64,000 nt of DNA. Origin: Halichondria panicea. Taxonomy: Eukaryota > Porifera > Demospongiae > Suberitida > Halichondriidae. The notes beneath the pieces were generated by a model. That model had not been told where the DNA came from, made no database searches, and saw only the letters and a list, made by a program, of their open reading frames with translations. A program made the position numbers and the translations under genes. Numbering within the stretch: position 1 is the stretch's first letter; every line of letters starts with the position of its first letter. The DNA lies in contig NC_087390.1 of the NCBI RefSeq assembly GCF_963675165.1, forward strand, positions 6,292,319 through 6,356,318, written 5' to 3'. Positions 33,463-60,039 of the stretch are shown piece by piece.

Positions 33463-34322
33463 TCAGCTCAGGAGGTTTAGAGTATAAGGACACTTGGTGA
33501 CAGTCAGTGTACAGATGCCATTACTTGGCGTGAATGTTCTGTGACCATCACTACTGGGATAGGTAACTTGACAGGCACAGTAAATGATGTTTCCACCTTT
33601 GTAGTGTGTGGTGGACACAAAGTGGCCGGTAAAGGGAAGATCACACAATATGCTGGATATGAAGTATTGTGTGTCCTGTATGGGATTGATAATTATGGTT
33701 AACATTTGATCATGTGCTTTATGTAGTGGCTTAGACTTACTCCACGATTGATGGTCACACCCTGATTAGTGGTACAAGTGGCATAAGTAGTGGTTGATGA
33801 TTGTGACAACGAACAAGTGCTGGTCTCCTGGATGCAACCCTCATAGAGATTGATTGTGCGGAGACGGTCCAAATCTTGACGAATGTTGTTCTGTACCAAA
33901 GTTGAGGTCTGTATTAAGTTCTGCATGCTGGCTATCTGGGATTCTTTAGCAGTGTTTGTTTCCTCCAACTGTTGAATCCTCGATAACAACAGATTATATC
34001 CGGCAGTGCTTGCACTTGATTCAGTGTTGTCTCCACCACTGACCAGAGGACTGTACATGATGACAGCCACCAGAGACACAACTAGAGCAATGACCAGAAA
34101 TACAGTCATCAATGCAATCACAACACATTTCCACCTCTTGACTTTAGTGGAGATTTGACCGGCTAGTTGGGAGTTGTTCTCAACTTCAACACGGTTAGGA
34201 CGATTGATTGTCATGTAATGAGATTGTTGTTCCTGCATCTCGACGTGCTCGTACAACTCTTGTTCTTTGTTTGGCTGTGGTTTAACCTGGCGACTTGTTT
34301 TAGGAGCTGGTTGACGACTCAT
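33463..34322 (-). CDS. Family B1: type II coiled-coil receptor-like protein
   Basis: Exons 34322-33741 and 33675-33463 (phase-0 intron of 65 nt), 264 residues. The tail of ~65 residues contains YEHVEMQEQQSHYMTI (Tyr24, Tyr36): two YxxPhi sites with eight residues between, ITAM-like spacing, the second also S-x-Y-x-x-I (ITIM pattern). The membrane span is ~67-89. A heptad stalk follows (LLLSRIQQLEETNTAKESQI, LRQDLDRL-type). Head: GCIQETSTC, ATC, then exon 2 DTQYFISSILC, YCAC, GICTLTVTKC. The head plan matches family A. It is convergent with the calaxin-like gene. Confidence 0.82.
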
Positions 34323-35091
34323 TTTCTCAACTAATTGAGTGAGTCACATCACATAATGTGCATTTTATGGTGCAATGTGCATATATATACATGCATGTCT
34401 ATAGCATTATTAATATTATCATATTGATAGAAGGAGGTAAACAGTTTCTGTTTGTAGTTTTAGATGAAAGCAAACCCCACATTACAGTAAACACACTTGC
34501 AACAGGTGGACTTCATCTGCATACCATCAAGCCACAATAAGTTATATAGTTCCCATGCACTGCATGCTATTGTGCAGTACTGTACTGTATAGTAATTTCT
34601 GTGCAATTGTGCGTGAAAGTGGGTGGCTGTACTTACTACCTATATCAAAGCTACAATATTCATCCATTAACACATGTAAATTTTACACAGTAGCTACAAA
34701 CAAGTATATATTTGGCATAATTATGTCTTCACAATAAACACCACAGATATACTTATGAGTTATGACGAACAAGTATACGGAGATCTGCCATATAAAGTCA
34801 TCAAGATGTAAGTTGTCTCATGTGATGTCAATGCATGCTGCATATACTTTTTGGCCAGTTTCGTTGATCACACACATGGCTGCATAATTATAAGAGAGAA
34901 ACCATGGTAACACAGCCACAAAACACTATTGCAATGATGAAAAGCTTCATGTTATTGTAAACAGTGTCACTTTAAACATGTGTCACTACTTACATTGAGA
35001 TCTCAGAGTGAAAATTTGTTGTAGTCCTTGCAAATTTGATGACGGTATGATGTTATTAATAGCATTACGACATCTTTCTGTTTCTCTGCAG
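34323..35091. other. Duplicated spacer unit upstream of B1
   Basis: This spacer (gaaggaggtaaacagtttctg ... caacaggtggacttcatctg ... catatactttttggcc) recurs with high similarity at 43990-44740, 56150-56865 and 58105-58820, always between a B first exon and an orphan calaxin exon. No gene seen. Confidence 0.7.
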
Positions 35092-35388
35092 GATCATGAC
35101 AATGACTTAAAAGTGTCATTTGAGGATTTTAAGAAGTCTATTGAGAATGAGCGACTGTTGATTGAAGCATTTGGACCTTGTTCACCAGACTCTACCTTGT
35201 TAGAGGACTTCTCAGCTAAAATATGCAGTATTAATTGTTATGACTATATATATGCATACAAAGGATTGTGTATGCATGTGTTGAATGAGTGGGTGGCATT
35301 GCAGTATCTACAACATTATGATGCATGGTATCAAGAGTTCATTATGGTGGTATGCAGCAGCAGCAGTAATCAGACAACAACAAATTAA
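35092..35388 (+). pseudogene. Orphan calaxin last exon, copy 1, extended frame
   Basis: Preceded by an intact acceptor (tttctgtttctctgcag). Codes DHDNDLKVSFEDFKKS and [12 protein letters not shown], but the normal stop is lost (AAAATATGCAG) and the frame runs on ~45 codons to TAA at 35386. There are no partner exons nearby. It is either a dead duplicate or an alternative last exon of the upstream gene. Confidence 0.7.
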
Positions 35389-35509
35389 ATGTACACTAAA
35401 TAATTATTAAGCTAGATGGAGGGTAACAGATAAACACCATGTAGCTACTCATTCACACAATGTCTCAGTTCAGTTTCAGCAAAATACGTTATAGTCAGTT
35501 TAGCTCAGA

Positions 35510-35660
35510 AGGTTTTGAGTATAAGGACACTTGGTGACAGTCAGTGTATATACAGACTAGCCTGCCGATTATTTAATCGGCCTCGAGGCTATGTGCAGAC
35601 AGGATAATAGACAGCGAATGTGCTGTGACCAGTACTAATAGGAGAAGTAAGTTATACTGT
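35510..35660 (-). pseudogene. Family B exon-2 fragment with hairpin insertion
   Basis: The end of a B second exon (ggttttgagtataaggacac, ttggtgacagtcagtgt) is interrupted by a short palindromic insert (gactagcctgccgattattt ... cggcctcgaggcta, ~35562-35602). It then resumes as tgtgctgtgaccagtactaat and stops. It cannot be translated. Confidence 0.65.
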
Positions 35661-36098
35661 ATTATACTGTACAGTAATTTCTGTGCAATTGTGTGTGTGC
35701 CTGAGTGGATCTGCAAAATAATAATTAAAATTAATCGACATTGAAAGTTAGGTCACAGTATACTGGGTGGCTGTGCTTATAGCTAGATCTACCTATATAT
35801 ATCAAAGCTACAACATCACTTTAACTTATGTAAATTTTATACAGTATAGCTCATTGTAAACAAGCAAAACTGCATGGTATGCAGGTAATTGGGTATGTGT
35901 TTGAGTTGAGTGGGTGGTGGTTCTGCAGGACATCTCATATAAATTATAATGTGAACTCATGCACGCACATAGTAAAGGTAACGAACTATTAACATCATGC
36001 ACAATCTATGCAGCTATAATATATATATATTGTTGAACTACACACAATGTCACAAGACAATTTAGTTTCAGCAAAATACTTATTATAATTATGTCAGT

Positions 36099-36310
36099 TC
36101 AGTTGAGGAGGTTTTGAGTATAAGGACACTTGGTGACAATCAGTGTGCAGACCACATTACTTCCCGAGTCGTGACCATCACCATTGGGAGGAGCAGTAAT
36201 ATCACAGTCACAGTGAATACTGTTTCCATGCACTCTTGTAGTATGAGGTTGACACAAAGAAGCCGGTATGGGACAGATCACACAATATACTGGATGTGAA
36301 GTAATCTGTG
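36099..36310 (-). pseudogene. Family B2 exon-2 pseudogene
   Basis: A complete second-exon region (acceptor at ~36311, DTDYFTSSILC start, end VVCTLIVTKC) with a four-base insertion (gcat) in the segment normally AAGAGTGGAAAC, which shifts the frame. No first exon lies upstream. Confidence 0.7.
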
Positions 36311-36379
36311 TCCTGTATGGATTGATACCCTATAGCTCAATGTCATTATAAAACGTGTATGTATTAGTTATTGCCCAGC

Positions 36380-36480
36380 CAGCAACATGCCATATATTGC
36401 ACTGGAGCAATATAATGCCCTCGGGCCGCAGGCCCCGAGGGCATTATATCATCCAGTGCAATATATGGCATGTTGCACGA
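36380..36480. mobile_element. Palindromic element
   Basis: tgccatatattgcactgg at ~36388 pairs with ccagtgcaatatatggca at ~36452 around a GC-rich centre (gccctcgggccgcaggcccc). The same tgccatat / cactggatt words make up the related elements at 36720-36860 and, inverted, at 61665-61815. Confidence 0.65.
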
Positions 36481-36719
36481 GGGCGCCTGCAATAACTAAC
36501 TTGTTGCCCAATGACGTTAAACTCGTCTGACTGGTCATATAAATCGTAATAAAAGACATGTGTTTTGAAGGAATTTAGTGTATTCATTAGTTTTGCTGAA
36601 TTCCATAGTAAATTTTTTAGGTTTTCTTCACACTAGTAGTTGTAAAGGTAGTAGCCTATAAAAGGGACCAACTGAGTATTGGGTAGGATGGTGGGGCATA
36701 AGTCCCAACTGGATATCTC

Positions 36720-36860
36720 TTAAAGAAATCTACTGCATTTACACACAGTGCAAGTGCATATAATCCAGTGCAATATATGGTAGCCATCCATGGCAGTTAT
36801 GCAACATGCCATATACTGAGCACTGGATTGCTTTGATCTGCCCACTCACTGGGCAACAAA
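36720..36860. mobile_element. MITE-like copy, inverted copy at 61665-61815
   Basis: The run from tctactgcatttacacacag through gcatataatccagtgcaata to tttgatctgcccactcactg reappears as reverse complement at ~61665-61815 (agtgagtgggcagatcaaag ... tgtgtgtaaatgcagtagat). Non-coding. Confidence 0.65.
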
Positions 36861-36923
36861 TATATATATATATATACGTTATAGATGTGCATTCATTTGC
36901 GACATCTTTCTGTTTCTCTACAG

Positions 36924-37076
36924 GATCATGACAATGTCTCGAAAGTGTCACTGGAGGATTTCAAGAAGTCTATTGAGAATGAGCGACTGTTGATTGAAGC
37001 ATTTGGACCTTGTTTACCAGACTCCACCTTGTTAGAGGAGTTCTCAGCTAAAATATTCATCCGATCATTATTATGA
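36924..37076 (+). pseudogene. Orphan calaxin last exon, copy 2
   Basis: The acceptor (tttctgtttctctacag) is intact and the frame is open to a stop at 37074. The EF loop reads [13 protein letters not shown], so the fifth loop ligand Asp is Val, which should weaken calcium binding. The end is KIFIRSLL instead of KIFNS. Confidence 0.7.
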
Positions 37077-37245
37077 GTGCTTTGCACTATGTGCAATATC
37101 TAGCTATTATACAACATGTACAGAACTGTGCAAAATGTACACAATAACTTATAGCTAGAAGATAACATTATAAACACCATTTAGAGCAGCTATACTGCCT
37201 CAGTTAATTGTTTCAGCAAAATATAGGTAGTATTATTAAAACAGT

Positions 37246-38289
37246 TTAGTTCAGGAGGTTTCGAGTATAAGGACACTTGGTGACAGTCAGTGTACAGATG
37301 CCATTACTTGGTGAGAATGTTCTGTGACCATCACTATTGGGATAGGTAACTTGACAGGTACAGTAAATATTGTTTCCACTCTTGTCGTATGTGGATGACG
37401 TGAAGTGGCCAGTATAGAATTGAAGATTACACAATATGCTGGATGTAAAGTATTGTGTGTCCTGTATGGGATTGATATGATTATGAGCTGTACACTTAAA
37501 ATTGATCATGTTATTAGTGTACTAGAGGCTTAGACTTACTTCAGGATTGATGGACATACTTGGACTAGTGCGACAAGTGGCATAAGTACTCGTTGATGAT
37601 GTTGGCATCGTGCAAGTCCTGGTCTGCTGGATACAGCCCTCATAGAGGTTGATTGTGCGGAGACGGTCCAAATCTTGACGAAGGTTGTTCTGGATCAAAG
37701 TTGATGTCTGTATTAAGTTCTGCATGCTGGCTATCTGGGAAGAGTACAATGCTGATGATTTAACAGTGTTCGCCACTGTGACATTCAATCCCTGAATTGC
37801 TTGCATCCTTCCCTCCAACTGTGAGATCCTCGACAATATATAGTTATAGTCCATTTGCCGCTGAACTTGTGCTTCCAGGAATTTTTGTAGCAATTCAAAA
37901 GAGTGGTTGGTTCCCTGTTGTTCCATTCTTCCCTCCAACTGCTGTATCCTAGACAACAGATTATCTCCGGCAGTGCTGGCACTTGATTCAGTGTTGTCTC
38001 CACTGCTGACCAGAGGACTGTATATGATGACTGCCACCAGAGACACAACTAGAGCAATGACCAGAAATACAGCAATCAGTGCAATCACAACACGTTTCCC
38101 CCTCTTGACTTTAGTGGAGATTTGACCGGCTAGTTGGGATTTGTCCTCAACTTCAACGCGGTTAGGGCGATTGATTGTCATGTAATGAGATTGTTGTTCC
38201 TGCATCTCGACGTGCTCGTACAACTCTTGTTCTTTGTTTGGCTGTGGTTTAACCTGGCGACTTGTTTTAGGAGCTGGTTGACGACTCAT
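37246..38289 (-). CDS. Family B3: longest-stalk receptor-like protein
   Basis: Exons 38289-37540 and 37461-37246, intron of 78 nt, 321 residues. MSRQPAPK was chosen over an ATG 21 bases upstream because all B copies start there. The tail has YEHVEMQEQQSHYMTI. The span is ~67-89. The coiled-coil stalk is doubled (LLSRIQQLEGRMEQQ ... ILSRISQLEGRMQA ... SQIASMQNLIQ), about 60 residues longer than B1, and holds an N-glycosylation site (LNVTVANT). Head: GCIQQTRTC, ATC, then LC, YCTC, GICTLTVTKC. Stalk-length variation suggests internal duplication. Confidence 0.82.
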
Positions 38290-38323
38290 CTTCTCAACTA
38301 ACTGGGTCACATCACATAATGTG

Positions 38324-38331
38324 TATTTATA
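38324..38331 (-). promoter_or_regulatory. TATA-like box of family B
   Basis: On the minus strand TATAAATA lies ~35-42 bp before the B3 start codon, inside a block shared by B copies (cataatgtgtatttatagc on plus). The same box occurs upstream of B7 (46035-46042) and B11 (~54654-54661); B1 and B6 have a shortened form. It is a plausible core promoter. Confidence 0.45.
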
Positions 38332-38712
38332 GCATTTTATGGTGCAGCAATGTGCGTATATACATATCTATATAATAGCAACATTAATGTCATATTGATA
38401 GAGGGAGGTAAACAGTTCCTGTTTGTTGTTTTAATTACTGAAAGCAAACCACATTTAATACAGTAAACACACATACAATAAGCATAAAACAGATGGACTT
38501 CATCTGCCATCAAGTCCCAATATAATTATAGTTCCCCATGCCTGCATGCTATTGTGCAGCACTGTATATACTATAGTAATTTCTGTGCAATTTTTGTGCC
38601 TGAGTGGATCTGCTTAAAATGCAATATCCCAATACAGAACCCCATAAGGCCACTGCTAATGAATGTCATGTTTCTGGTTTGGGAATCACCTTACCACTAA
38701 ACCTATACCAGC

Positions 38713-39017
38713 TATAGCCTCGAGACCAGCCGTTCGTTATTTGAAGAACGCCTGGTCAAGTTCCAATGTAGCACTCGTCCAGCGGTCCAGGAATTTCTTG
38801 GACCGGTAATTGCCCGCAACAACCATACTTTCCCGTGAATATCATTATGATGCTTCCAGTAACGTGCAGCTAGCTATAGTATTGTTGTGGTTGCAGTTAC
38901 CGCATCATGTTCACAACTACTCAAGCCTAACCACTCGCTGACTCAGCTAAATGAGTTCTACATTGGAACTTGACCAGGCGTTCTTTCAGATAACGAACGG
39001 CTGGTCTCGAGGCTATA
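38713..39017. mobile_element. Palindromic MITE (tatagcctcgagaccagc ends), copy 1
   Basis: The left arm tatagcctcgagaccagccg ... gaacgcctggtcaagttcca pairs with the right arm tggaacttgaccaggcgttc ... ggctggtctcgaggctata. ~305 bp, no ORF. A second copy at 50828-51419 carries a nested insertion; a right-arm remnant lies at ~46402-46464. Confidence 0.8.
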
Positions 39018-39885
39018 TACCAGCTACTGAGGGAGGGAGGTTATCATTATTCATTATTGTGACATCACTTCCTGTAAAACCCATTTCCTGTTAATTAAAA
39101 ACACAACACAAACATGAAGGCACAGTACAAGAGTAATTGTACACTTCAATTTTTATCATATGACACACCCACAAATAGGTGTGGCTAATGAAAACAATGA
39201 AGTGATGTCATAATAATGAGTTTTTTTTATGAGGTAGTGAAATTCAATGATGGAGGTGACCAGAAACAAGACTTTCATCCTAACGGACCCTCCCACTAGA
39301 GCATAACCTCTCTAGCTCTATAGAGTAGTCTCGCGGACCCAGACCCTGAAAGATTGTAACGACTGGCTTGCGAGACTATCCATAGAGGACACTCAGCTAT
39401 ATGGCACAAATTGAAATCACTATCTACTGTCTAAGTACACAGAAACAACCTTCCACTATAGCAGACCTTCTTGATTCCGGACAGAGGACAATTAAGCTTT
39501 GTGCTCCCAAAACTGACCAACTTGGCTCTCTGTGTAAAACTGCCTCTTATAACAAACAGGAAACTACATTATGCTCAACAATTATGCCATGCCATATTGG
39601 GCATAAAAATAATAGTACTATATAGACGCACGTCTATAATAATTATACAACATAATTGAAATAAGCAAAAAACTGTATGCAGATAATTGGGTATGTGTTT
39701 GGAGTTCAGTGCCAGGGCGGTAAATTATTCTCATGAACTCATGCACATAATAATTTATAGTAAAGCTTAGGGTAATTATCTATCCAGCTATAATTATATA
39801 ATATATACATTCTTAGCTATTGAGCTACACACAATGTCATAAGACAATTCAGTTTCAGCAAAATACGTATTATCAAGTCAGTTCA
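39018..39885. repeat. Segmentally duplicated spacer, block I
   Basis: The run from ccagctactgagggaggg through gacatcacttcctgtaaaac, tctcgcggacc...gcgagact and acagaggacaattaagcttt recurs at ~46465-47520 and ~51420-52195. No gene. It is part of a ~4-kb unit present three times. Confidence 0.75.
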
Positions 39886-39889
39886 GTTG

Positions 39890-41000
39890 AGGAGGTTTTG
39901 AGTATAAGGATACTTGGTGATAGTCAGTGTGCAGACGGCATTACTTCCCAAGGCTACTGAGCCATGACCATCACCGTCGGGACACAGTCACAGCAAATAT
40001 TGTTGCACTCTTGTAGTACGAGGTTGACACAAAGAAGGCGGTATTATAGACAGATCACAATAATTATTATATACTGGATGTGAAGTACTCTGTGTCCTGC
40101 ATGCATGTGGGATTGATACCACCCTCAATGTATGTAGATATATAATTATGATAAATACACTTACACCAGGATTGATGGTTATATCTCCAGTTTGACAGCC
40201 GATCCAATAAGGATTGATTGGAATTGGCAACGTACAAGTCCTGGTCTCCTGGATACAGCCCTCAAAGAGGTTGACTGTGCGGAGACAGTCCAAATCTTGA
40301 CGAAGGTTGTTCTGTACCAAGCTCAGGTTTTGCACTGAGTTCTGCACAATAAGAAACTGTGAGGAGACAGTATCATCATAGTCCGATTACCGCTGAAATT
40401 GTACTTATACCCTGCATCTCATTTGGTACAGTGGATCTCCTTTTATTATGACGTACACTTTGGGAAACAAAATTTTGGCCATCATAATTATATAGAGGCC
40501 TTTATTGAGAGGTTCTTTTGCACACACTGTGACTGTGTTCATTTGGGACCTGGGTGGCTGGCCTTAATATCACAGTTGGCCTTCAGGAGTGCCATGGCCG
40601 GTAAGAGGGTTCCATGCACTTACAGTAGCAAATCCCTGCATGTAGTCACCACCACTCTTGCAAATTTGATTTTGTTATAACCATAAGTACATACATAACT
40701 ATAGCAATCTACTACACTAGAAGGGCTGTATGATGACTGCCACCAGAGACACAACTAGAGTACAGGCCAGAAATAAAGCCATTAGTGCAATCACAACAAC
40801 ATTCCACAACTCTTGGTTTTAATGGAGATTTGACCGAGTATGTAGTTGAGAACTGTCCTCAACGGGGTTGGGGTGAATGGTGGTCATGTTCTTCCTGCAT
40901 CTCAAGTTATTCATACACATCTTCTTCTTTGCTGGGCTGTCCTTTCACTGTGGGTGACTTATCATGTTTAGAAGCTTGGCTATATATACTTATCTCCTCA
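39890..41000 (-). pseudogene. Family B4 pseudogene
   Basis: The second exon is broken soon after its acceptor by an ataattat-type insertion (CCAGTATATAATAATTATTG), giving stops. The head half of exon 1 (FEGCIQETRTC) survives near 40200-40340. The tail and span lie ~400 bp away at ~40735-40990, badly worn, with EDSSQL-like and EEDVYE-like traces. A ~290-bp unrelated stretch (gtgactgtgttcatttggga...) separates them. Confidence 0.7.
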
Positions 41001-41572: not shown

Positions 41573-42345
41573 TCAGTTGAGGAGGTTTCGAGTATTAAGG
41601 ACACTTGGTGACAGTCAGTGTGCGGACAGGATCATATAGACAGAGAATGAGCTGTGACTAGCACCACTGGGATAAGTAACTTCACAGTAGCAGTAAATAT
41701 TGTTTCCACTCTTGTAGTATGTGGCTGATGTGAAGTAGGCTGGTATGAGAAAAATCACACACTATGCTGGATGTGAAGTACTGTGTGTCCTGTATGGGAT
41801 TGATATGGTTATGAGCTGTACACTTGATCATGTGATTATAGTGTATTATATAGGGGCTTAGACTTACTCCACGAGGTCACACTACTAGTGCTACAAGTGG
41901 CATAACTAGTGACTGATGATTGTGTTATCGTACAAGGTCCTGGTCTCCTGGATACAGCCCTCATAGAGGTTGATTGTGCGGAGACAGTCCAAATCTTGAC
42001 GAATGTTGTTCTGTACCAAAGTTGAGGTCTGTATTAAGTTTTGCATGCTGGCTATCTGGGATTCTTTAGCAGTGTTTGTTTCCTCCAACTGTTGAATCCT
42101 CGACAATAGATTCCCAGTGTCTCCACCGCTGACCCAGAGGACTGTATATGATGACAGCCACCAGAGACACAATTAGAGCAATGACCAGAAATACTGCAAT
42201 CAATGCAATCACAACACATTTCCCCCTCTTGACTTTAGTGGAGATTTGACGGCTAGTTGGGATTTGTCCTCAACTTCAACGCAGTTAGGGCGATTGTAAT
42301 GAGATTGTCGTTTCCTGCATCTCGACGTGTTCGTACAACTCTTGT
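41573..42345 (-). pseudogene. Family B5 pseudogene
   Basis: Both exon regions are recognisable (exon 2 from 41789; stalk and head near 41906-42120), but there are several single-base changes of frame: an extra C in the span region (gacccagagg), a lost C in gatttgac-ggctag, and extra bases in exon 2. The first ~25 codons are missing: homology ends at cttgttctttgg (~42351). Confidence 0.75.
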
Positions 42346-42559
42346 TCTTTGGATTAGATCACATATTGATGAGGTCTATTATTTTATTACACAAACAAAA
42401 ATTGCATCATCTGTAATTGAAGAATTTTTCCCATATGGCTAGGTGTAACTCATTAATTAATTTAGGCCACACCCCTAACATGATGAACTTTTTGGGAAGC
42501 CATGAGGGGGCTGATGAGAAACTACTAATCTACTTTGCCTGACCTATTAGAGTCACATC

Positions 42560-43129: not shown

Positions 43130-43970
43130 TCAGCTCAGGAGGTTTCGAGTATAAGGGCACTTGGTGACAGTCAGTGTGCAGATGCCATTGAACGAGAATA
43201 TACTGTGAATACTACCACTGGGATAGGTAACCTCACAGCGACAACGGATATTGTTTTCACTCTTGTAGTACGAGGTTGACACGAGGTAGTTGGGATTTGA
43301 AACATCACACAATATGCTGGATGTGAAGTACTGTGTGTCCTGTATGGGATTGATATGGTTATGAAACTGTGCATACATAACTAATCACGTGGTGGGGGAC
43401 CCAAAAGGCAATGTTTAGACTTACTCCAGAATTTATGGTTACAACACCAGTGTTGCAGGCGATCCAATAATTGCCATTTGCTGCCAACGTACAAGTCCCT
43501 GTCTGCTGGATACAGCCCTCATAGAGGTTGATTGTGCGGAGACGGTCTAAATCTTGACGAATGTTGTTCTGTGCCAAAGTTGAGGTCTGTATTAAGTTCT
43601 GCATGCTGGCTATCTGGGATTCTTTAGCAGTGTTTGTTTCCTTCAGCTGTTGAATCATCGATAATAGATTCCCAGTGTCTCCATTTCTGACCAGAGGACT
43701 GTATATGATGACAGCCACCAGAGACACAACTAGAGCAATGACCAGAAATACTGCAATCAGTGCAATCACACCACATTTCCACCTCTTGACTTCAGTGGAA
43801 ATTTGACCGGCTAGTTGGGATTTGTCCTCAACTTCAACAGGGTTAGGGCGATTGATTGTCATGTAATGAGATTGTTGTTCCTGCATCTCGACGTGCTCGT
43901 ACAACTCTTGTTCTTTGTTTGGCTGTGATTTAACCTGGCGACTTGTTTTAGCAGCTGGTTGACGACTCAT
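43130..43970 (-). CDS. Family B6: receptor-like type II protein
   Basis: Exons 43970-43425 and 43339-43130, intron of 85 nt, 251 residues. Tail YEHVEMQEQQSHYMTI; span; short stalk (LLSMIQQLKETNTAKESQI). Head: GCIQQTGTC, IAC, then DTQYFTSSILC, IRCRC, GICTLTVTKC. The exon 2 surface differs from B1 and B3 (NPNYLVSTSYYKSENN), so heads diverge more than tails. Confidence 0.82.
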
Positions 43971-45098: not shown

Positions 45099-45998
45099 TC
45101 AGTTCAGGAGGTTTCGAGTATAAGGACACTTGGTGACAGTCAGTGTGCAGATGCCATTACTTGGTGAGAATGTTATGTGACCAGTACCAGTGGGAAAGGT
45201 AACTTGACAGGAGCAACGGATATTGTTTCCACTCTTGTCGTATGTGGATGACGTGAAGTGGCCGGTATAGAATTGAAGATTACACAATATGCTGGATGTG
45301 AAGTACTGTGTGTCCTGTATGGGATTGATATGGTTATGAGCTGTACACTTGATCATGTGATTATAGTGTATTAGAGGCTATAGACTTACTCAAGGATTGA
45401 TGGTCACACTACTAGTGAGACAAGTGGCATAAGTACTCGTTGATGATGTTGGTATCGTACAAGTCCTGGTCTCCTGGATACAACCCTCATAGAGGTTGAT
45501 TGTGCGGAGACGGTCCAAATCTTGACGAACGTTGTTCTGTATTGAAGTTGAGGTCTGTAATAAGTTCTGCATGCTGGCTATCTGCATGGGAAGAGTAAAA
45601 TGCTGATAATTAATTAACAGTGTTTGCCACTGAACGCTTGCACGTACACTTCCCTCCAACTGTGAGATCCTCGACAACATATTATCTCCGGCAGTGCTGG
45701 CACTTGATTCAGTGTTGTCTCCACTGCTGACCAGAGGACTGTACATGATGACAGCCACCAGAGACACAACTAGAGCACAGACCAGAAATACAGCAATCAG
45801 TGCAATCACAACACGTTTCCCTCTCTTGACTTTAGTGGAGATTTGACCGGCTAGTTGGGATTTGTCCTCAACTTCAACGGGGTTAGGGCGATTGATTGTC
45901 ATGTAATGAGATTGTTGTTCCTGCATCTCGACGTGCTCGTACAACTCTTGTTCTTTGTTTGGCTGGTGACTTGTTTTAGCAGCTGGTTGACGACTCAT
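45099..45998 (-). pseudogene. Family B7: nonsense codon at the exon 1 border
   Basis: Exon 1 (45998-45390) and exon 2 (45314-45099) are otherwise intact. The last codon of exon 1, GGA or GAA in other copies, is TGA here (AATCCTTGA|GTAAGT). The product would end just before the second half of the head, losing five cysteines. The tail lacks six residues (TSHQPNKEQ) but keeps the YEHV...YMTI pair. The stalk has a replaced segment (WQTLLINYQHFTLPM). It could be a secreted-head-less receptor or a young pseudogene. Confidence 0.75.
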
Positions 45999-46564
45999 CT
46001 TCTCAACTAATTGAGTCACATCACATATAATGTGTATTTATAGCCTTTATGGTGCAGCAATGTGCGTACATGTCTAGAGCATAATTATCATTTTGATAGG
46101 GGGAGGTAAACAGTTTCTGTTTGTTGCTATGATAATAGTGAAAGCAAACGCCCACATTATACAGTAAACATGCGTAGACTACATACATTAAGCACAAAAC
46201 AGATGGACTGTATCTGCCACCAAATCACAATAAATTACATTATATAGTTCATATTCTGCTATTATGCAGCACTGTATCTACTGTATAGTAATTTCTGTGC
46301 AATTGTGTGTGTGCCTGAGTGGATCTGCAAAATAATAATTAAAATCAATCGACATTGAAAGTTGGGTACTGGGTGGCTGTGCTTATAGCTACCTATAATT
46401 ATATCTACATTGGAACTTGACTAGGCGTTCTTTCAGATAACGAACGGCTGGTCTCGAGGCTATACCAGCTACTGAGGGAGGGAGGTTATCATTATTCATT
46501 ATTGTGACATCACTTCCTGTAAAACCCCATTTCCTGTTAATTAAAAACACAACAACACAAACTA

Positions 46565-46770
46565 TGACGGCGACCGTCCCTGACGGGAGGTCGGGTTGCA
46601 AGCGGATTTGTACATGTAGACGTTTCGCAACTAGATGCAAACAGAAGTGTAACCAAGCACGTGAAAAATGCTGCAATCTGATAGGGCGCCACTATAGTGG
46701 CGCTAGAACAAATCCCAGATAGGCTTGCAACCTGATCTCCCGTCAGGAGACGGTCGGGCAACGCCCAACT
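46565..46770. mobile_element. Insertion with imperfect inverted ends in block II
   Basis: Blocks I and III read acacaaacatgaag...acagtacaag without interruption; block II has ~205 extra bases between acacaaac-ta and ta-gcacagtac. The ends pair imperfectly (gtccctgacgggaggtcggg / atctcccgtcaggagac), with TA on each side. Confidence 0.6.
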
Positions 46771-47534
46771 AGCACAGTACAAGAGTAATTTAACATTGTA
46801 CACTTCAATGATTTATCATATGACACACCCACAAATAGGTGTGGCTAATGAAAACAATGAAGTGATGTCATAATAATGATTTATGAGGCAGTGAAATTCA
46901 ACGAGGGAGGTGACCAGAAACAAGACTTTCATTAACAGTGGCCTAACGGACCCTCCCACTAGAGCACAACCTCTCCAGCTCTATAGAGTAGTCTCGCGGA
47001 CCTAGACCCTGAAAGATTGTAACGGCTGGCTTGCGAGACTATCCATAGAGGACACTAGCTATGTATGGCACAAACTGAAATCACTATCTACTCTCTAAGT
47101 ACACAGAAACAACCTTCCACTATAACAGACCTTCTTGATTCCGGCCGGACAGAGGACAATTAAGCTTTGTGCTCCCAAAACTGACCAACTTGGCTCTCTG
47201 TGCAAAACTGCCTCTTATAATTATAAAAGACGAACAGGAAACCACATTATGCCCAACAATTATGCCATGCCATATTGGGCATAAAATAATAGTACTATAA
47301 TTATACAACATAATTATTAATAGAAATAAGCAAAAAACTGTATGCAGGTAATTGGGTATGTGTTTGGAGTTCAGTGCCAGGGTGGTAAATTATTCTGATA
47401 AACTCATGCACATAATATAGTAAAGGGTAACATCACAATCTATGCAGCTATAATTATCTATTGAACTACACACAATGTCACAAGACAATTCAGTAGTTTC
47501 AGCAAAATACGTATTATCAAGTCAGTTCAGTTGA

Positions 47535-48665
47535 GGAGGTTTTGAGTATAAGGATACTTGGTGATAGTCAGTGTGCAGACGGAATTACTTCCCAAGGCTA
47601 CTGAGCCATGACCATGACCGTCGGGACACAGTTACAGCGAATATTAATATTGTTTCCACTCTTGTAGTACGAGGTTGACACAAAGAAGGCGGTATTAGAC
47701 AGATCACCATAATATTATATACTGGATGTGAAGTACTCTGTGTGTGTCCTGCATGCATGTGGGATTGATACCACCCTCATGCAATGTATGTAGATATATA
47801 ATTATGATAAATACACTTACACCAGGATTGATGGTTATATATACCATCAGTGTGACAGCCGATCCAATAAGGAATTGGCAATGTACAAGTCCCGGTCTCC
47901 TGGATACAGCCCTCATAGAGGTTGACTGTGCGGAGACGGTCCAAATCTTGACGAAGGTTGTTCTGTACCAAGCTCAGGTTTTGCACTGAGTTCTGCACAA
48001 TAAGAAACTGTGAGGAGACAGTATCATCATAGTCCGATTGCCGCTGAAATTGTACTTATTATCTCATTTGGTACAGTGAATCTCCTTTTATTATGACGTA
48101 CACTTTGGGAAACAAAATTTTGGCCATTATAATTATATAGAGGCCTTTATTGAGAGGTTCTTTTGCACACACTGTGACTGTGTTCATTTGGGACCTGGGT
48201 GGCTGGCCTTAATATCACAGTTGGCCTTCAGGAGTGGTCGTAGGAGGGTTCCATGCACTTACAGTAGCAAATCCCTGCATGTAGTCACCATACTTATGTA
48301 TGTCACCATACATGGCTTGCAAATTTGATTTTGTTATAACCATAAGTACATACATAACTATAGTAATCTACTACACTAGAAGAGCTGTATGATGACTGCC
48401 ACCAGAGACACAACTAGAGTACAGGCCAGAAATAAAGCATTAGTGCAATCACAACAACATTCCTCCTCTTGGTGTTAATGGAGATTTGACCGAGTATATA
48501 GTTGAGAACTGTCCTCAACGGGGTTAGGGTGAATGGTGGTCATGTCAGTCCTGAGACTGTTCTTCCTGCATCTCAAGTTGTTCATACACGTCTTCTTCTT
48601 TGCTTGGCTGTCCTTTCACTGGGTAACTTATCATGTTTAGAAGCTGGTTGGCTATATATACTTAT
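47535..48665 (-). pseudogene. Family B8 pseudogene (duplicate of B4)
   Basis: The layout is the same as B4: a broken exon 2 (stops in CCAGTATATAATATTATGG), a surviving head half (YEGCIQETGTC) near 47880-47990, and worn tail and span at ~48390-48650. It was already defective when the block duplicated, since the same type of lesion occurs in both. Confidence 0.7.
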
Positions 48666-49219
48666 CTTCTCAACTGATGTGTGTAATATGAATCATGCAC
48701 ATCATAATTATTTATATAGCATACTAGCAATTATTGCATGGACCACCTTGTATGTAAAATCACAGACATCTGCCATAAAGTCATAAATTTAAGTTTATAG
48801 TTGTCTCATGTGATGTCTCACTGCGTATATTACTGAGAACGAGTGACTGTTAGTCTGTTAGTTTACCAGACTCTACTGTGTTAGATTTGGGATTTCTCAG
48901 CTAAAATATTCAGTGCCTAACACTTAATGACATGCAGATATTGTACCTTAATGCCAATTAAAGTAGGTCAATTAGTGCAGCACTCAATACTGGGTGTTGG
49001 GTATGTGGGTGATCATGACTCTGCAGTAAACTTCAACAACGCATCCTATATTTTTATATATACTACAAAAATCAAGTACAAGCAATTAATTAGAATTAAG
49101 CAAGAGGGTGACAGACAACATTATATACACCAACGTATACGTAAGCTATTCATGCATTGTTTTAAAGTACACACAATATCTCAGTTTAGTACATTTCAGC
49201 AACAATACTTAAAGTCAGT

Positions 49220-50119
49220 TCAGCTCAGGAGGTTTTTAGTATAAGGACACTTGGTGACAGTCAGTGTGCAGACAGGATTATAGATATAGAATGAGCTGTG
49301 ACCAGAACTACTGGGAGCAGTAACTTCACAGGAGCAGCGAATACTGTTTCCACTCTTGTAGTATGTGGATGATGTGAAGTAGCTGGTATAAGAAAAATCA
49401 CACAATATGCTGGATATGAAGTACTGTGTGTCCTGTATGGGATTGATATGGTTATGAGCTGTACACTTGATCATGTGATTATAGTGTATTAGAGGCTATA
49501 GACTTACTCCAGGATTGATGGTTACATAAGCAGTGCTACAAGTGGCATAACTAGTGACTGATGATGATTGTGTTATCGTACAAGTCCCGGTCTCCTGGAT
49601 ACAGCCCTCATAGAGGTTGATTGTGCGGAGACGGTCCAAATCTTGACGAAGGTTGTTCTGTGCCAAAGTTGAGGTCTGTATTAAGTTTTGCATGCTGGCT
49701 ATCTGGGAAGAGTACAATGCCGACGATTTAACAGTATTTGCCACTGTGACATTCAACCCCTGAATTGCTTGCACTCTTCCTTCCAACTGTGAGATCCTCG
49801 ACAACAGATCCTCGACTTTAGTGTTGTCTCCACCGCTGGCCAGAGGACTGTATATGATGACAGCCACCAGAGACACAACTAGAGCAATGACCATAAATAC
49901 AGCAATCAGTGCAATCACAACACATTTCCCCCTCTTGACTTTAGTGCAGATTTGACCAGCTAGTTGGGATTTGTTCTCAACTTCAACGGGGTTAGGACGA
50001 TTGATTGTCATGTAATGAGATTTTTGTTCCTGCATCTCGACGTGCTCGTACAACTCTTGTTCTTTGTTTGGCTGTGGTTTAACCTGGTGACTTGTTTTAG
50101 GAGCTGGTTGACGACTCAT
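49220..50119 (-). CDS. Family B9: receptor-like type II protein
   Basis: Exons 50119-49508 and 49432-49220, intron of 75 nt, 274 residues. MSRQPAPK start as in the others. Tail YEHVEMQEQKSHYMTI. Span ~67-89. Stalk LLSRISQLEGRVQAIQGLNVT with a glycosylation site. Head: GCIQETGTC, ATC, then DTQYFISSILC, IRCSC, PVCTLTVTKC. All borders are intact, so it is likely functional. Confidence 0.82.
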
Positions 50120-51419: not shown

Positions 51420-52199
51420 CCAGCTACTGAGGGAGGGAGGTTATCATTATTCATTATTGTGACATCACTTCCTGTAAAACCCCCATTTCCTGTTAATTAA
51501 ACACAACAACACAAACATGAAGGACAGTACAAGAGTAATTTAACATTGTACACTTCAATGATTTATCATATGATACACCCACAAGTAGGTGTGGCTAATG
51601 AAAATAATGAAGGATGTCATTTTTTTATGAGGTAGTGAAATTCAACGAGGGAGGTGACCAGAAACATGACTTTCATTAACAGTGGCCTAACGGACCCTCC
51701 CACTGGAGCACAACCTCTCTAGCTCTATAGAGTAGCCTCGCGGACCTAGACCCTGAAAGATTGTAACGGCTGGCTTGCAAGACTATCCATAGAGGACACT
51801 AGCTATGGCACAAATTGAAATCACTATCTACTGTCTAAGTACACAGAAACAACCTTCCACTATAACAGACCTTCTTGATTCCGGCCGGACAGAGGACAAT
51901 TAAGCTTTGTGCTCCCAAAACTGACCAACTTGGCTCTCTGTGCAAAACTGCCTCTTATAATTATAAAAGACGAACAGGAAACCACATTATGCCCAACAAT
52001 TATGCCATGCCATATTGGGCATAAAATAATAGTACTATAATTATACAACATAATTATTAATAGAAATAAGCAAAAAACTTGTGTTTGGAGTTCAGTGCCA
52101 GGGTGGTAAATTATTCTGATAAACTCATGCACATAATAATTTATAGTAAAGGGTAACATCACAATCTATGCAGCTATAATTATCTATTGAACTACATGC

Positions 52200-53414: not shown

Positions 53415-54609
53415 TCAGCTCAGGAGGTTTTTAGTATAAGGACACTTGGTGACAGTCAGTGTGCAGACAGGATTATAGATAGAGAATGAGCTGTGACTAG
53501 CACCACTGGGATACGTAACTTCACAGTAGCAGTAAATATTGTTTCCACTCTTGTAGTAGGTGGATGATGTGAAGTAGCTGGTAAGAGAAAAATCACACAC
53601 TATGCTGGATGTGAAGTACTGTGTGTCCTGTATGGGATGGATATGGTTATGAGCTGTAACTTGATCATGTGATTATAGTGTATTAGGGCTTGGACTTACT
53701 CCAGGATTGATGGTCACACCACCATTAGTGCGACAAGTGGCATAACTAGTGACTGATGATTGTGTTATCGTGCAAGTCCTGGTCTCCTGGATACAGCCCT
53801 CATAGAGGTTGATTGTGCGGAGACGGTCTAAATCTTGACGAAGGTTGGTCTGTATCGAAGTTGAGTTCTGTATTAAGTTCTGCAGGCTGGCTATTTGGGA
53901 AGAGTGTGATGCCAACATCATTGTGATAGTGTCGCGCCCACTGTTACATTTGTTCCCTGCATTGTGTGGAGATGGTCTAAATCTTGACGAACGTTGTTTT
54001 GCATTGAGCTAAGGGCTGATTCTAGCGATTCCTTCAGCGATATCAAAGAATGGTTGGTTGCTCCCTGTATTGTCCAAAGGTGGTCCAAATCTTGACAAAT
54101 GTTGTTCTGTACCAAGCTCAGGTTTTGCACTGAGTTCTGCACATTAAGGAACTGTGAGGAGACATTACCATCATAGTCCGATTGCTGCTGAACTTGTGCT
54201 TCTATAGTGACTCCAGCGATTTCTGAAAGAGTTGTTGGTTACCTGCATTTTCTCCAGCTGCTGTATCCTTGACAACAGATCCTCCACTTCAGTGCTGGCA
54301 CTTGATTCAGTGTTGTCTCCACTGCTGACCAGAGGACTGTATAATTATGATGACAGCCACCAGAGACACAACTAGAGCAATGACCAGAAATACAGCCACC
54401 ATTAGTGTAATCACACAAAAGTTCCCTCTATTAATTTTAGTGGAGATTTGACCAGCTAGTTGGGAGTTGTCCTCAACGTGGTTAGGGCGATTGATTGTCA
54501 TGTACTGAGATTGTTCTTCCTGCATCTCGAGTTGTTCATACACCTCTTCTTCTTTGCTCGGCTGTCCTCTCACTGGGTGACTTATCTCAGGAGCTGGTTG
54601 GCGACTCAT
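53415..54609 (-). pseudogene. Family B11: divergent copy, frameshifted
   Basis: The tail differs from other B copies (SHPVRGQPSKEEEVYEQLEM) and carries YEQL...YMTI, a full ITAM consensus (YxxL-x8-YxxI). A four-base insertion in the span (gactgtataattatgatg) shifts the frame. The long stalk has two further breaks. Exon 2 (53627-53415) is still open with all five cysteines. The worn tails of B4, B8 and B10 resemble this type, so it is probably an older subfamily. Confidence 0.7.
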
Positions 54610-54968
54610 CTTCTCTGTATATATATGATTATAATTAGGAACATCACATCACGTATTTATAGCATAGAAATTGCATGATTTTGTATACGCATAACAGGAC
54701 CATCTTGTGGCAGGTGGATAACAGTTGTTGTTATTATAATGAAGCAAAAGAAAGTTAAGAGAGCTATAAGCTTATACATAAGAAGACTTTATTAGGCAAA
54801 ATAGTGAGATTCAATTCGATAATTCTGTCCAATAAATAAACACCACATGTACAACAGTAAACGAGTGATGCAAGCTGTGCTGTGCTATTGCCTCTCGCCA
54901 TGCATATTTTGCTTTCGCTCAAAAAGTATTGTCAAAGGCATAGTCTATATTATAGTCTAAGAATAGTG
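54610..54968. other. Spacer, no gene
   Basis: AT-rich sequence with a TATA-like box near 54655; nothing coding seen. Confidence 0.5.
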
Positions 54969-55052
54969 AGAGAACGAGTGACTGTTGATTGAAGTATTTG
55001 GACCTTGTTTACCAGACTCAACCTTGTTAGAGGACTTCTCAGCTAAAATATG
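54969..55052 (+). pseudogene. Orphan calaxin last exon, 5'-truncated
   Basis: Starts inside the exon at gagcgactg-equivalent (gaacgagtgactgttgattg) and continues to ttctcagctaaaatatg. Acceptor and EF loop are missing. Confidence 0.65.
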
Positions 55053-55297
55053 CTGCATCGCTATGACTGTATACATGTATACAAGGGATTGAATTGAATT
55101 GAGTGGGTGGCATTGCAGCAGCTAGAACATTATGATGGTATACAGTAATCCGACGATAAAAAATTAAAGTATATATACACCTAATTTTAAGCTAGAGGGT
55201 AACAGATATCATTATAAACACCATGTAGCTACTCATTCTATTAACTACACACAATGTCTCAGTTCTGTTTCAGCAAATTCGTATTATTAAAGTCAAT

Positions 55298-56129
55298 TCA
55301 GTTCAGGAGGTTTTGAGTATAAGGACACTTGGTGACAGTCAGTGTGCATACGGCACTACTGTACGAGAATGTACTGTGACCAGTACTAATGGGATTGGTA
55401 ACTTCACAGTCACAGCGAATACTGTTTCCATTCTTGTAGTATGAGGTTGACACGAGGTAGTTGGAACTGGACAAATCACACACTATGCTGGATGTGAAGT
55501 ACTGTGTGTCCTGTATGGGATTGATATTGTTATGGTTGTACATGCATAATTTATGAGTCCCGAGAGGCAATGTGTATACTTACTCTAGGATTGATGGATA
55601 CAAAACCAGTGTTGCAGGCGATCCAATAATTGCTTAATGTTGCCAAATGACAAGTGCTGGTCTCCTGGATACAGTCCTTATAGAGGTTGACTGTGTGGAG
55701 ACGGTCCAAATCTTGACGAAGGTTGTTCTGTGCCAAAGTTGAGATCTGTATTAAGTTCTGCATACTGGCTATCTGGGATTCTTTAGCAGTGTTTGTTTCT
55801 TCCAACTGTTGAATCCTCGACAATATATTCCCAGTGTCTCCACCGCTGACCAGAGGACTGTATATGATGACTGCCACCAGAGACACTACTAGAGCAATGA
55901 CTAGAAATACTGCAATCAATGCAATCACAACACATTTCCCCCTCTTGATTTTAGTGGAGATTTGACCGGCTAGTTGGGATTTGTCCTCAACTTCAACGCG
56001 GTTAGGACGATTGATTGTCATGTAATGAGATTGTTGTTCCTGCATCTCGACGTGCTCGTACAACTCTTGTTCTTTGTTTGGTTGTGGTTTAACCTGGCGA
56101 CTTGTTTTAGCAGTTGGTTGACTACTCAT
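55298..56129 (-). CDS. Family B12: receptor-like type II protein
   Basis: Exons 56129-55584 and 55510-55298, intron of 73 nt, 252 residues; start MSSQPTAK in place of MSRQPAPK. Tail YEHVEMQEQQSHYMTI. Span; stalk ILSRIQQLEETNTAKESQI. Head: DCIQETSTC, IAC, then DTQYFTSSIVC, IRCDC, AVCTLTVTKC. Intact. Confidence 0.82.
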
Positions 56130-56868
56130 CTTCTCAACTAATTGAGTCACATTGCATAATGTGTATTTTATGGTAACAGCAATGTGCGTATACATGTCTA
56201 TAGCATTATTAATATTATCATATTGATAGAAGGAGGTAAACAGTTTCTGTTTGTAGTTTTAGATGAAAGCAAACCCTACATTACAGTAAACACACTTGCA
56301 ACAGGTGGACTTCATCTGCATACCATCAAGCCACAATAAGTTATATAGTTCCCATGCACTGCATGCTATTGTGCAGCACTGTACTGTATAGTAATTTCTG
56401 TGCAATTGTGCGTGAAAGTGGGTGGCTGTACTTAGCTATATACCTGTATCAAAGCTACAATATTCATCCATTAACACATGTAAATTTTACACAGTAGCTA
56501 TACAAACAAGTATATATTTTGGCATAATTATGTCTTCACAATAAACACCACAGATATACTTGTGACGAACAAGTATACAGAGATCTGCCATATAAAGTCA
56601 TCAAGATGTAAGTTGTCTCATGTGATGTCAATGCACGCTGCATATACTTTTTTGGCCAGTTTCGTTAATCACACACACACATGGCTGCATAATTATGAGA
56701 GAAACCATGGTAACACAGCCACAAAACATATTGCAATGACTGTAACGGTGTCACTTTAAACATGTGTCACTACTTTCTGAGTGAAAATGTGTTGTGTAGT
56801 CGTTGCAAATTTTGACGACGGTATAATGTGCATTAATAGCATTACGACATCTTTCTGTTTCTCTGCAG

Positions 56869-57057
56869 GATCATGACAATGACTTAAAAGTGTCACTGGA
56901 GGATTTCAAGAAGTCTATTGAGAATGAGCGACTGTTGATTGAAGCTTGTTTACTAGACTCCACCTTGTTAGAGAACTTCTCAGCTCAAATATGCTGTATT
57001 GTTAATTATTATGACTGCATGTATGTATACAAGGGATTGTTGCATGTATTAAATTGA
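56869..57057 (+). pseudogene. Orphan calaxin last exon, copy 4
   Basis: Intact acceptor; frame open for 63 codons to TGA. A nine-base in-frame deletion removes the FGP of EAFGPC, and the tail is extended past the normal stop (CIVNYYDCMYVYKG), similar to copy 1. It belongs to the 1955-bp duplication. Confidence 0.7.
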
Positions 57058-57232
57058 ATTGAGTGGGTGGCATTGCAGCAGCTAGAACATTATGATGGTA
57101 TACAGTAATCAGACAAAAATTTGAAGTATACACTTAATTTTAAGCTAGAGGGTAACAGATAACATTATAAACACCATGTAGCTACTCATTCTATTAAATA
57201 TATACACTCAGTTCTGTTTCAGCAAATAGGTA

Positions 57233-58079
57233 TCAGTTCAGTTCAGGAGGTTTCAAGTATAAGGACACTTGGTGACAGTCAGTGTGCAGACGGCACTGCA
57301 TGTACAGGAATGTGTTGTGACCAGCACTAATGGGATAGGTAACTTCACATTCGCAGCAAATAGTGTTTCCACTCTTGTATGTACGAGGTTGACACAAGGT
57401 AGTTGGAACTGGACACATCACACACTATGCTGGATGTGAAGTACTGTGTGTCCTGTATGCATGGGATTGATATGGTTATGGTTGTACATGGATAACTTAT
57501 GAGTCCTGAGAGGCAATGTTTATACTTACTCCAGGATTGATGATCAGTAAAAAACCAGTGTTGCAAGCGATCCAATCATTGCTTAATGATAACAACAGTC
57601 AAGTCCTGGTCTCATTGGTACAGCCCCCATAGAGGTTAACTGTGCGGAGACAGTCCAAATCTTGACGAAAATTGTTTTGTGCCAAAGTTGATGTCTGTAC
57701 TAAGTGTTGTATGCTGGCTATCTGAGATTCTTTAGCAGTGTTTTTTTCCTCCAGCTGTTGAATCCTCGACAATAGATTCCCAGTGTCTCCACCGCTGACC
57801 AAAGGACTGTATAATGATGACAGCCACCAGACACACAACTAGAGCAATGACCAGAAATACAGTCATCAGTGCAATCACAACACATTTCCACCTCTCGATT
57901 TTAGTGGAGATTTGACCGGCTAGTTGGGAGTTGTTCTCAACTTCAACGTGGTTAAGACGATTGATTGTCATGTAATGAGATTGTTGTTCCTGCATCTCGA
58001 CGTGCTCGTACAACTCTTGTTCTTTGTTTGGCTGTGGTTTAACCTGGCAACTTGTTTTAGCAGCTGGTTGACGACTCAT
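57233..58079 (-). pseudogene. Family B13 pseudogene
   Basis: Exon 1 from 58079 keeps the tail (YEHV...YMTI) but an extra base in the span (gactgtataatgatg) moves the frame. The stalk and half-head then lie in another frame (GGCTNETRT). Exon 2 has a further shift at ttgtatgtacgag. Not translatable in full. Confidence 0.8.
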
Positions 58080-58823
58080 CTTCTCAACTAATTGAGTGAG
58101 TCACATCGCATAATGTGTATTTTATGGTAACAGCAATGTGCATATATATACATGTCTATAGCATTATTAATATTATCATATTGATAGAAGGAGGTAAACA
58201 GTTTCTGTTTGTTGTTTTAGATGAAAACAAACCCCACATTACAGTAAACACACTTGCAACAGGTGGACTTCATCTGCATACCATCAAGCCACAATAAGTT
58301 ATATAGTTCCTATGCATGCACTGCATGCTATTGTGCAGCACTGTACTGTATAGTAATTTCTGTGCAATTGTGCGTGAAAGTGGGTGGCTGTACTTACTAC
58401 CTATATCAAAGCTACAATATTCATCCATTAACACATGTAAATTTTACACAGTAGCTACAAACAAGCATATATTTTGGCATAATTATGTCTTCACAATAAA
58501 CACCACAGATATACTTGTGACGAACAAGTATACAGAGATCTGCCATATAAAGTCATCAAGATGTAAGTTGTCTCATGTGATGTCAATGCACGCTGCATAT
58601 ACTTTTTTGGCCAGTTTCGTTAATCACACACACACATGGCTGCATAATTATGAGAGAAACCATGGTAACACAGCCACAAAACATATTGCAATGACTGTAA
58701 CGGTGTCACTTTAAACATGTGTCACTACTTTCTGAGTGAAAATGTGTTGTGTAGTCGTTGCAAATTTTGACGACGGTATAATGTGCATTAATAGCATTAC
58801 GACATCTTTCTGTTTCTCTGCAG

Positions 58824-59012
58824 GATCATGACAATGACTTAAAAGTGTCACTGGAGGATTTCAAGAAGTCTATTGAGAATGAGCGACTGTTGATTGAAGC
58901 TTGTTTACTAGACTCCACCTTGTTAGAGAACTTCTCAGCTCAAATATGCTGTATTGTTAATTATTATGACTGCATGTATGTATACAAGGGATTGTTGCAT
59001 GTATTAAATTGA
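58824..59012 (+). pseudogene. Orphan calaxin last exon, copy 5
   Basis: Same sequence as the copy at 56869, with acceptor, deletion of FGP and extended tail, from the 1955-bp duplication. Confidence 0.7.
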
Positions 59013-59187
59013 ATTGAGTGGGTGGCATTGCAGCAGCTAGAACATTATGATGGTATACAGTAATCAGACAAAAATTTGAAGTATACACTTAATTTTAAGC
59101 TAGAGGGTAACAGATAACATTATAAACACCATGTAGCTACTCATTCTATTAAATATATACACTCAGTTCTGTTTCAGCAAATAGGTA

Positions 59188-60039
59188 TCAGTTCAGTTCA
59201 GGAGGTTTCAAGTATAAGGACACTTGGTGACAGTCAGTGTGCAGACGGCACTGCATGTACAGGAATGTGTTGTGACCAGCACTAATGGGATAGGTAACTT
59301 CACATTCGCAGCAAATAGTGTTTCCACTCTTGTATGTACGAGGTTGACACAAGGTAGTTGGAACTGGACACATCACACACTATGCTGGATGTGAAGTACT
59401 GTGTGTCCTGTATGCATGGGATTGATATGGTTATGGTTGTACATGGATAACTTATGAGTCCTGAGAGGCAATGTTTATACTTACCCCAGGATTGATGATC
59501 AGTAAAAAACCAGTGTTGCAAGCGATCCAATCATTGCTTAATGATAACAACAGACAAGTCCTGGTCTCATTGGTACAGCCCCCATAGAGGTTAACTGTGC
59601 GGAGACATGCAGTCCAAATCTTGACGAAAATTGTTTTGTGCCAAAGTTGATGTCTGTACTAAGTGTTGTATGCTGGCTATCTGAGATTCTTTAGCAGTGT
59701 TTTTTTCCTCCAGCTGTTGAATCCTCGACAATAGATTCCCAGTGTCTCCACCGCTGACCAAAGGACTGTATAATGATGACAGCCACCAGACACACAACTA
59801 GAGCAATGACCAGAAATACAGTCATCAGTGCAATCACAACACATTTCCACCTCTCGATTTTAGTGGAGATTTGACCGGCTAGTTGGGAGTTGTTCTCAAC
59901 TTCAACGTGGTTAAGACGATTGATTGTCATGTAATGAGATTGTTGTTCCTGCATCTCGACGTGCTCGTACAACTCTTGTTCTTTGTTTGGCTGTGGTTTA
60001 ACCTGGCGACTTGTTTTAGCAGCTGGTTGACAACTCATC
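59188..60039 (-). pseudogene. Family B14 pseudogene (duplicate of B13)
   Basis: Carries the same span and exon 2 frame changes as B13, plus a private atgc insertion in gagacatgcagtcc. The start reads MSCQPAAK. The shared lesions show that B13 was already broken before duplication. Confidence 0.8.

Follow-up and report, generated by a model that had tools for sequence, protein, structure and literature searches.

We analysed a 64,000-nucleotide (nt) stretch of DNA (the window) from the demosponge Halichondria panicea, located in a 6.5-Mb contig (C14) of the 131-Mb genome. Region 33463..60039 of the window contains eleven copies or fragments of one gene, here called family B, all on the minus strand. 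The cluster extends 13.9 kb beyond the right edge of the window, with three further tail-bearing copies, up to C14:6370204. Most copies carry two tyrosine sites in the tail at the spacing of an immunoreceptor tyrosine-based activation motif (ITAM), and each window copy is named here by the position of its first-site tyrosine: 59969, 58010, 56060, 54540, 50050, 48586, 45941, 43901, 42335, 38220 and 34253.

Organization of the family-B cluster

A complete family-B gene has two coding exons separated by a phase 0 intron of 61-85 nt (nine copies; GTAAGT...CAG) that lies within the head. Exon 1 encodes the tail, the span, the stalk and three head cysteines, and exon 2 encodes the other five. Five copies (56060, 50050, 43901, 38220 and 34253) were open across both exons, the stop codon of copy 45941 was the last codon of exon 1, and five copies (59969, 58010, 54540, 48586 and 42335) were broken, in agreement with the tandem copies and pseudogenes of a preliminary description made from the letters of the window. 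The features, all on the minus strand, were as follows.

37540..38289, copy 38220 exon 1, open: tail, span, stalk and first three head cysteines; tyrosine pair 38173-38220
37246..37461, copy 38220 exon 2: remaining head, stop included
33741..34322, copy 34253 exon 1, open; tyrosine pair 34206-34253
33463..33675, copy 34253 exon 2, stop included
43425..43970, copy 43901 exon 1, open; tyrosine pair 43854-43901
43130..43339, copy 43901 exon 2, stop included
45390..45998, copy 45941 exon 1, head cut after exon 1; tyrosine pair 45894-45941
45099..45314, copy 45941 exon 2, stop included
49508..50119, copy 50050 exon 1, open; tyrosine pair 50003-50050
49220..49432, copy 50050 exon 2, stop included
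55584..56129, copy 56060 exon 1, open; tyrosine pair 56013-56060
55298..55510, copy 56060 exon 2, stop included
59694..60077, copy 59969: both tail sites and span, then frame broken
57735..58100, copy 58010: both tail sites and span, then frame broken
54310..54648, copy 54540 (B11, YEQL): both tail sites and span, then frame broken; exon 2 open, 53421-53627
48548..48661, copy 48586: fragment of a broken tail that keeps the first site alone
42288..42353, copy 42335: fragment of a broken tail that keeps the first site alone

The encoded protein consists of a tail, one hydrophobic span, a helical stalk and a cysteine-rich head with eight cysteines, the order in which the preliminary description had placed them. 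A stretch rich in lysine and arginine precedes the span, and the span itself contains no charged residues. These features bear out the proposed type II topology, and they would suit a protein whose N terminus lies inside the cell and which requires no charged adaptor.

The RefSeq protein P0002 (LOC135348196 isoform X3) is the spliced product of copy 50050 and shows the predicted splice, while isoform X6 of the same gene (P0011) ends at the same residue as exon 1 of copy 45941. The two isoforms assigned to the single gene LOC135348196 thus correspond to copies about 4.1 kb apart (window 45390-50119), suggesting either that the annotation merges tandem copies or that transcripts join them. Within the same cluster, two 281-nt stretches (window 47059-47339 and 51799-52079), 4740 bases apart, are 99% identical, a likeness that points to recent duplication or conversion.

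Conservation of the tail tyrosine sites

Both tyrosine sites were present in 9/11 window copies, and the remaining two were the broken fragments: the second site reads SQD* in copy 48586, and a frameshift precedes it in copy 42335. The claim that every family-B copy with a tail carries the motif therefore stands for nine copies and falls for these two; likewise, the YEQL of copy 54540 is present, but the frame of that copy breaks just past the span. The pattern of an immunoreceptor tyrosine-based inhibitory motif (ITIM; S/I/V/L-x-Y-x-x-I/V/L) was found as S-H-Y-M-T-I in 8/11 window copies and as SQYMTI in one more, and this second site is not kept in distant groups.

The bare pattern Y..[LIV]x6-8Y..[LIV] gave 41 stop-free matches in the six frames of the window, whereas 30 order-1 Markov sequences gave 19.5 on average (10-30). 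Because 32 of the 41 lay outside family B, we did not accept the ITAM pattern alone as evidence. The family-B copies also share one ancestor and so are not independent events. With chance producing the pattern so often, and with the copies related by descent, we examined constraint instead, using eight of nine copies (o6370195 was dropped because its exon 2 is frameshifted). The per-codon comparison, which the preliminary description had suggested, revealed residue-changing codons at 1/18 positions of the motif stretch versus 17/48 elsewhere in the tail (Fisher p 0.015), the 18-codon stretch having been picked after the columns had been seen. Silent changes were evenly spread (2/18 versus 7/48), and the direct nonsynonymous-to-synonymous contrast between the two parts was not significant (p 0.25). 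What goes beyond chance is the tail position of the motif and the local scarcity of residue change. Part of the likeness among copies reflects recent copying, as three broken copies retain the motif.

The ratio of nonsynonymous to synonymous rates (dN/dS) was 1.25 for the first head part (confidence interval 0.61-2.72), 0.72 for the second (0.45-1.18), 0.54 for the tail (0.23-1.46), 0.45 for the span (0.17-1.31) and 0.61 for the stalk (0.37-1.00). No part differed clearly from 1, and we rejected diversifying selection on the head.

Exon searches of the genome identified paralogs on C14 (3.06, 4.49, 5.83 and 5.92-5.96 Mb), C4, C5 and C9; the weakest matches had E values near 0.001, yet showed the same exon pattern as family B. 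Protein searches returned 46, 45 and 50 hits, the last set largely repeating the first. From the first set we dropped P0026, P0031, P0032, P0045 and P0046 (no tail or a partial one), and 29 close tails became 27. Thirty hits of the second set were read, of which 21 were used; the others were secreted, garbled or near-duplicate, or had no tail. Only P0002, P0011 and P0047 carry the H. panicea species label. P0033-P0044 (33 to 43% identity in the protein search) and P0075-P0083 are probably from a second sponge; like the paralogs elsewhere in the genome, these relatives have the stalk and head in common with family B. P0105, a weak match (E 2.5e-4) with the tail NLYEEIDAT and a coiled coil, is possibly from a third sponge with the core site.

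A strict ITAM was present in 20/27 close family-B tails (0.04 expected by shuffling) and in 4/7 further paralog tails (0.16 expected), the latter seven including one without a head in its frame (C14_5964818) and one partial tail (C14_3062354). Three of the four ITAM-bearing paralog tails are, by eye, unlike family B in letters, and two of these three are neighbours on C9. No strict ITAM occurred in the distant family-B tails (0/12, P0033-P0044) or in the tails of a second family, C (0/16 and 0/5). The seven misses among close tails were P0003, P0008 and P0024, with YMTT; P0027-P0029, in which the second tyrosine is absent; and P0017, with wider spacing. The preliminary description had named freely varying tyrosines as evidence against its reading: the second site does vary in this way, being lost in P0027-P0029 and YMTT in P0003, P0008 and P0024, whereas the first does not.

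The site common to families B and C is L/V-Y-E-x-V/I/L. Across 45 anchored sites, tyrosine was kept in 40/45, glutamate at +1 in 43/45 and V/I/L at +3 in 44/45, with +2 varying; the sites were hand-picked, duplicates were collapsed, and P0036, P0037, P0068 and P0081 (no recognisable site) were left out, a choice that favours conservation. One family-C subgroup (4/16 tails) has lost the core tyrosine and kept another nearer the start. As for features of single-site ITAMs (hemITAMs), an acidic residue at -2 was found in 27/45 anchored sites, no DEDG box was seen in them, and a single YxxPhi recurs. With 20/27 in close family-B tails and 0/33 in more distant ones, the ITAM spacing is, on this comparison, real but local, and the element kept across families B and C appears to be the single site. 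The ITAM pair proposed earlier is thus upheld for close family-B tails and some further paralogs, and not as the conserved feature of the family.

Two observations on the relatives concern other parts of the protein. The stalk of one family-C gene (L074:2812-3468; C14:5959812-5960468) contains a 63-nt repeat in 10.4 copies with 91% matches, so stalk length may vary with repeat number. In several secreted-looking relatives, by eye, an apparent signal peptide replaces the tail and span, and the stalk and head are unchanged:

C14:5832285-5833010 (L075:2786-3511), secreted-looking relative
P0073, P0086 and P0088, secreted-looking relatives

Head fold and candidate signalling partners

Head models built for one family-B and one family-C protein showed six strands each, and both matched H-type lectins best in VIA-align, with modest Z scores of 5 to 6. 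Lectins occupied rows 1-8 for one model and rows 1-3, 9-11 and 13 for the other, comprising SLL-2, discoidins I and II and Helix agglutinins; we take SLL-2, the discoidin C-terminal domains and the Helix agglutinins to belong to the H-type lectin family. These models suggest that the head is probably lectin-shaped and may be H-type-like, and the structure prediction advised earlier thus gave lectins as its best matches. The H-type lectin family is described as binding N-acetylgalactosamine (PMC8878817). Unlike H-type lectins, the sponge head has no sequence match to them, contains eight cysteines and sits on a membrane-anchored stalk.

By profile, H_lectin (PF09458) was absent from the Pfam lists of the relatives, and the genome search for it gave a single row, on C6 (E 5.7), and none in the cluster. 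No Pfam C-type lectin was detected in exon 1 of copy 38220 at E 0.01, nor in 7/8 relatives at E 10, the eighth being represented by the best 25 of 57 weak rows; the C-type lectin fold was likewise absent among the VIA-align rows listed. The claim that the family has no sequence relation to natural killer (NK) cell receptors agrees with this lack of a Pfam C-type lectin match. Other searches yielded only candidates that we rejected: weak coiled-coil rows in the Pfam scan of the relatives; nothing at E up to 1 in the PDB by sequence with P0002; 16 rows at the level of chance (E 0.43 or higher; viral fusion proteins, CTLA-4) in the PDB with profile A1; a best E of 0.004, none under 0.001 and no coherent family in a viral fold library; and no Foldseek match on the PDB under 0.001, the best being CBM3 for the first model and a phage tailspike for the second.

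The genome contains exon matches in the order of tandem-SH2 signalling proteins. On the minus strand of C9, SH2, SH2 and tyrosine kinase matches run from 5259157 down to 5255365; on C3, SH2, SH2 and tyrosine phosphatase matches run from 8406287 down to 8404573; and C2 holds three SH2-kinase pairs. The second SH2 match on C9 is partial, as is the first on C3, which has one in-frame stop. The C9 gene may encode a tandem-SH2 kinase of Syk or Shark type, two types that exon matches do not tell apart. Separately, many tyrosine-phosphatase exons, often spaced like tandem genes, were among the matches listed on C4 at about 0.04-2.6 Mb of G000.

Proposed function and its alternatives

We propose, with a probability of about 0.5, that these genes form a demosponge multigene family of stalked, lectin-like surface receptors, each a trimer in which every chain signals by a single phosphotyrosine, ITAM spacing being an extension in family B. 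Each chain would be type II, its disordered N-terminal tail lying in the cytoplasm and followed by one span, a stalk that is probably a trimeric coiled coil and a six-stranded, H-type-lectin-like, presumably disulfide-paired head; some paralogs look secreted and share the stalk and head. The head would bind a ligand, which may be a glycan from microbes or self cells, and binding would cluster the receptors. A Src-type kinase would phosphorylate the recurrent first tyrosine (L/V-Y-E-x-V/I/L), and an SH2 protein would dock on the phosphorylated tail. Where a receptor has several chains, one site on each could already dock a tandem-SH2 kinase or phosphatase, in the manner of hemITAM receptors; the second YxxI of close family-B tails, at ITAM spacing, would let a single tail hold a tandem SH2 alone.

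The main rival, which we consider rather unlikely as a full account and which may coexist with signalling, is that these are endocytic or scavenger receptors, with YxxPhi or NPxY serving as internalisation signals for AP-2 or PTB adaptors and the head taking up particles or glycoproteins. YxxPhi was present in 27/27 close and 9/12 distant family-B tails, in 11/16 and 2/5 family-C tails and in 7/7 others, and NPxY in 15/28 tails outside family B; however, NPxY was found in 0/27 close and 0/12 distant family-B tails, and the presence of either motif does not discriminate endocytosis from signalling. The near-constant glutamate at +1 (43/45) argues against this reading, because glutamate at this position resembles Src-type substrates and is not known as an AP-2 preference. 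Uptake also has a precedent: the hemITAM receptor CLEC9A diverts cargo to endosomes (PMC11624271).

That paired phosphotyrosines on one tail hold Syk- or SHP-type tandem SH2 domains as the conserved function of the family is improbable. The counts in close family-B and further paralog tails, far above shuffling, favour it, as do the tandem-SH2 exon orders, but the motif is absent from all distant family-B and family-C tails, the second tyrosine is missing or sits in YMTT in six close tails, and the exon matches include the partial, interrupted SH2 on C3 and a kinase that may be Syk or Shark. Least probable of all, and very doubtful, is that these are adhesion or structural proteins whose tails have no notable function and resemble one another because they were recently duplicated and converted: dS is lower in the tail (0.08-0.13) than in the second head part (0.26-0.34), as homogenisation would give, broken copies retain the motif, and some relatives lack tail tyrosines (C14:4497059, C14:4492042) or a span (C14:5832285), but residue changes, unlike silent ones, keep away from the motif stretch compared with the other tail codons, and families B and C have the core site in common.

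The plan of the proposed receptors resembles that of vertebrate immune lectin receptors and was apparently reached independently. Dectin-1 and CLEC-2 of the vertebrate NK gene complex are clustered type II receptors with a stalked, lectin-like head and a tail that bears a hemITAM or ITIM, and CLEC-2 clusters, bringing single sites together (PMC11624271). The sponge family is likewise clustered, type II and stalked, with a probably lectin-like head and a tyrosine tail. Unlike Dectin-1 and CLEC-2, whose head is C-type lectin-like, it gives no such Pfam match, and family B has ITAM spacing on one tail, a long stalk and no sequence relation that we found. Tyrosine-motif recognition receptors are already described in invertebrates. 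The fester co-receptors of Botryllus and candidate allorecognition proteins of Hydractinia carry ITIM, hemITAM, ITAM or bare YxxI/L/V tails, thus sharing tyrosine core motifs with the sponge family, but the Botryllus co-receptors have immunoglobulin (Ig) and sushi ectodomains after a signal sequence, which the sponge family lacks, and a role tied to histocompatibility (PMC12065747). Oyster CgIgIT2 is also an invertebrate membrane receptor with an ITAM and differs by its five Ig domains (PMC11999971). A published survey of H. panicea receptors targeted TIR, NACHT, GPS, C-type lectin, SRCR and similar domains (PMC8242945), and a family with no Pfam domain would not be expected in it. Among the literature matches listed, mostly non-subscription, none described this family or a sponge protein with an ITAM tail.

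A wider reading, possible though short of probable, is that sponges have a system like the NK complex: clustered genes with fast turnover would supply type II receptors, along with partners that are secreted; trimeric stalks would bear H-type-lectin-like heads, and hemITAM and ITAM tails would connect to SH2 kinases and phosphatases, telling microbes or other sponges from self. If so, it would rank as the most basal example among animals and, within the literature searched, as the first whose head is H-type-lectin-like. Signalling by the tails would mean that sponges evolved tyrosine-motif lectin receptors whose head has no sequence relation to C-type lectins or Ig domains. The NK plan of vertebrates would in that case be one solution among several, each reached independently under a shared need, and the family would be a clustered, variable candidate for sponge recognition of self and microbes.

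The left part of the window (2177-14860, minus strand) contains a family A, whose small type II proteins seem to have no stalk and carry YQxPhi tails and short cysteine heads; one tail, at 3743-4192, reads YQRI-x4-YQRI-x4-YLPL. Among seven family-A tails, five contained YxxPhi (2.2 expected) and three a close tyrosine pair (0.15 expected), suggesting that tyrosine tails mark more of the region than family B alone. A single exon was tied to family B by search, the other family-A links resting on pattern:

10464..10652, minus strand, family-A head exon 2 (CHCNM..CTLVITRC), matching the family-B head at E 5e-5 and sharing its exon pattern; exon-1 cysteines at 10945-11022

At 5436-6398 on the minus strand, a family-A tail is followed by a long run of PHAANG-like repeats ahead of the span.

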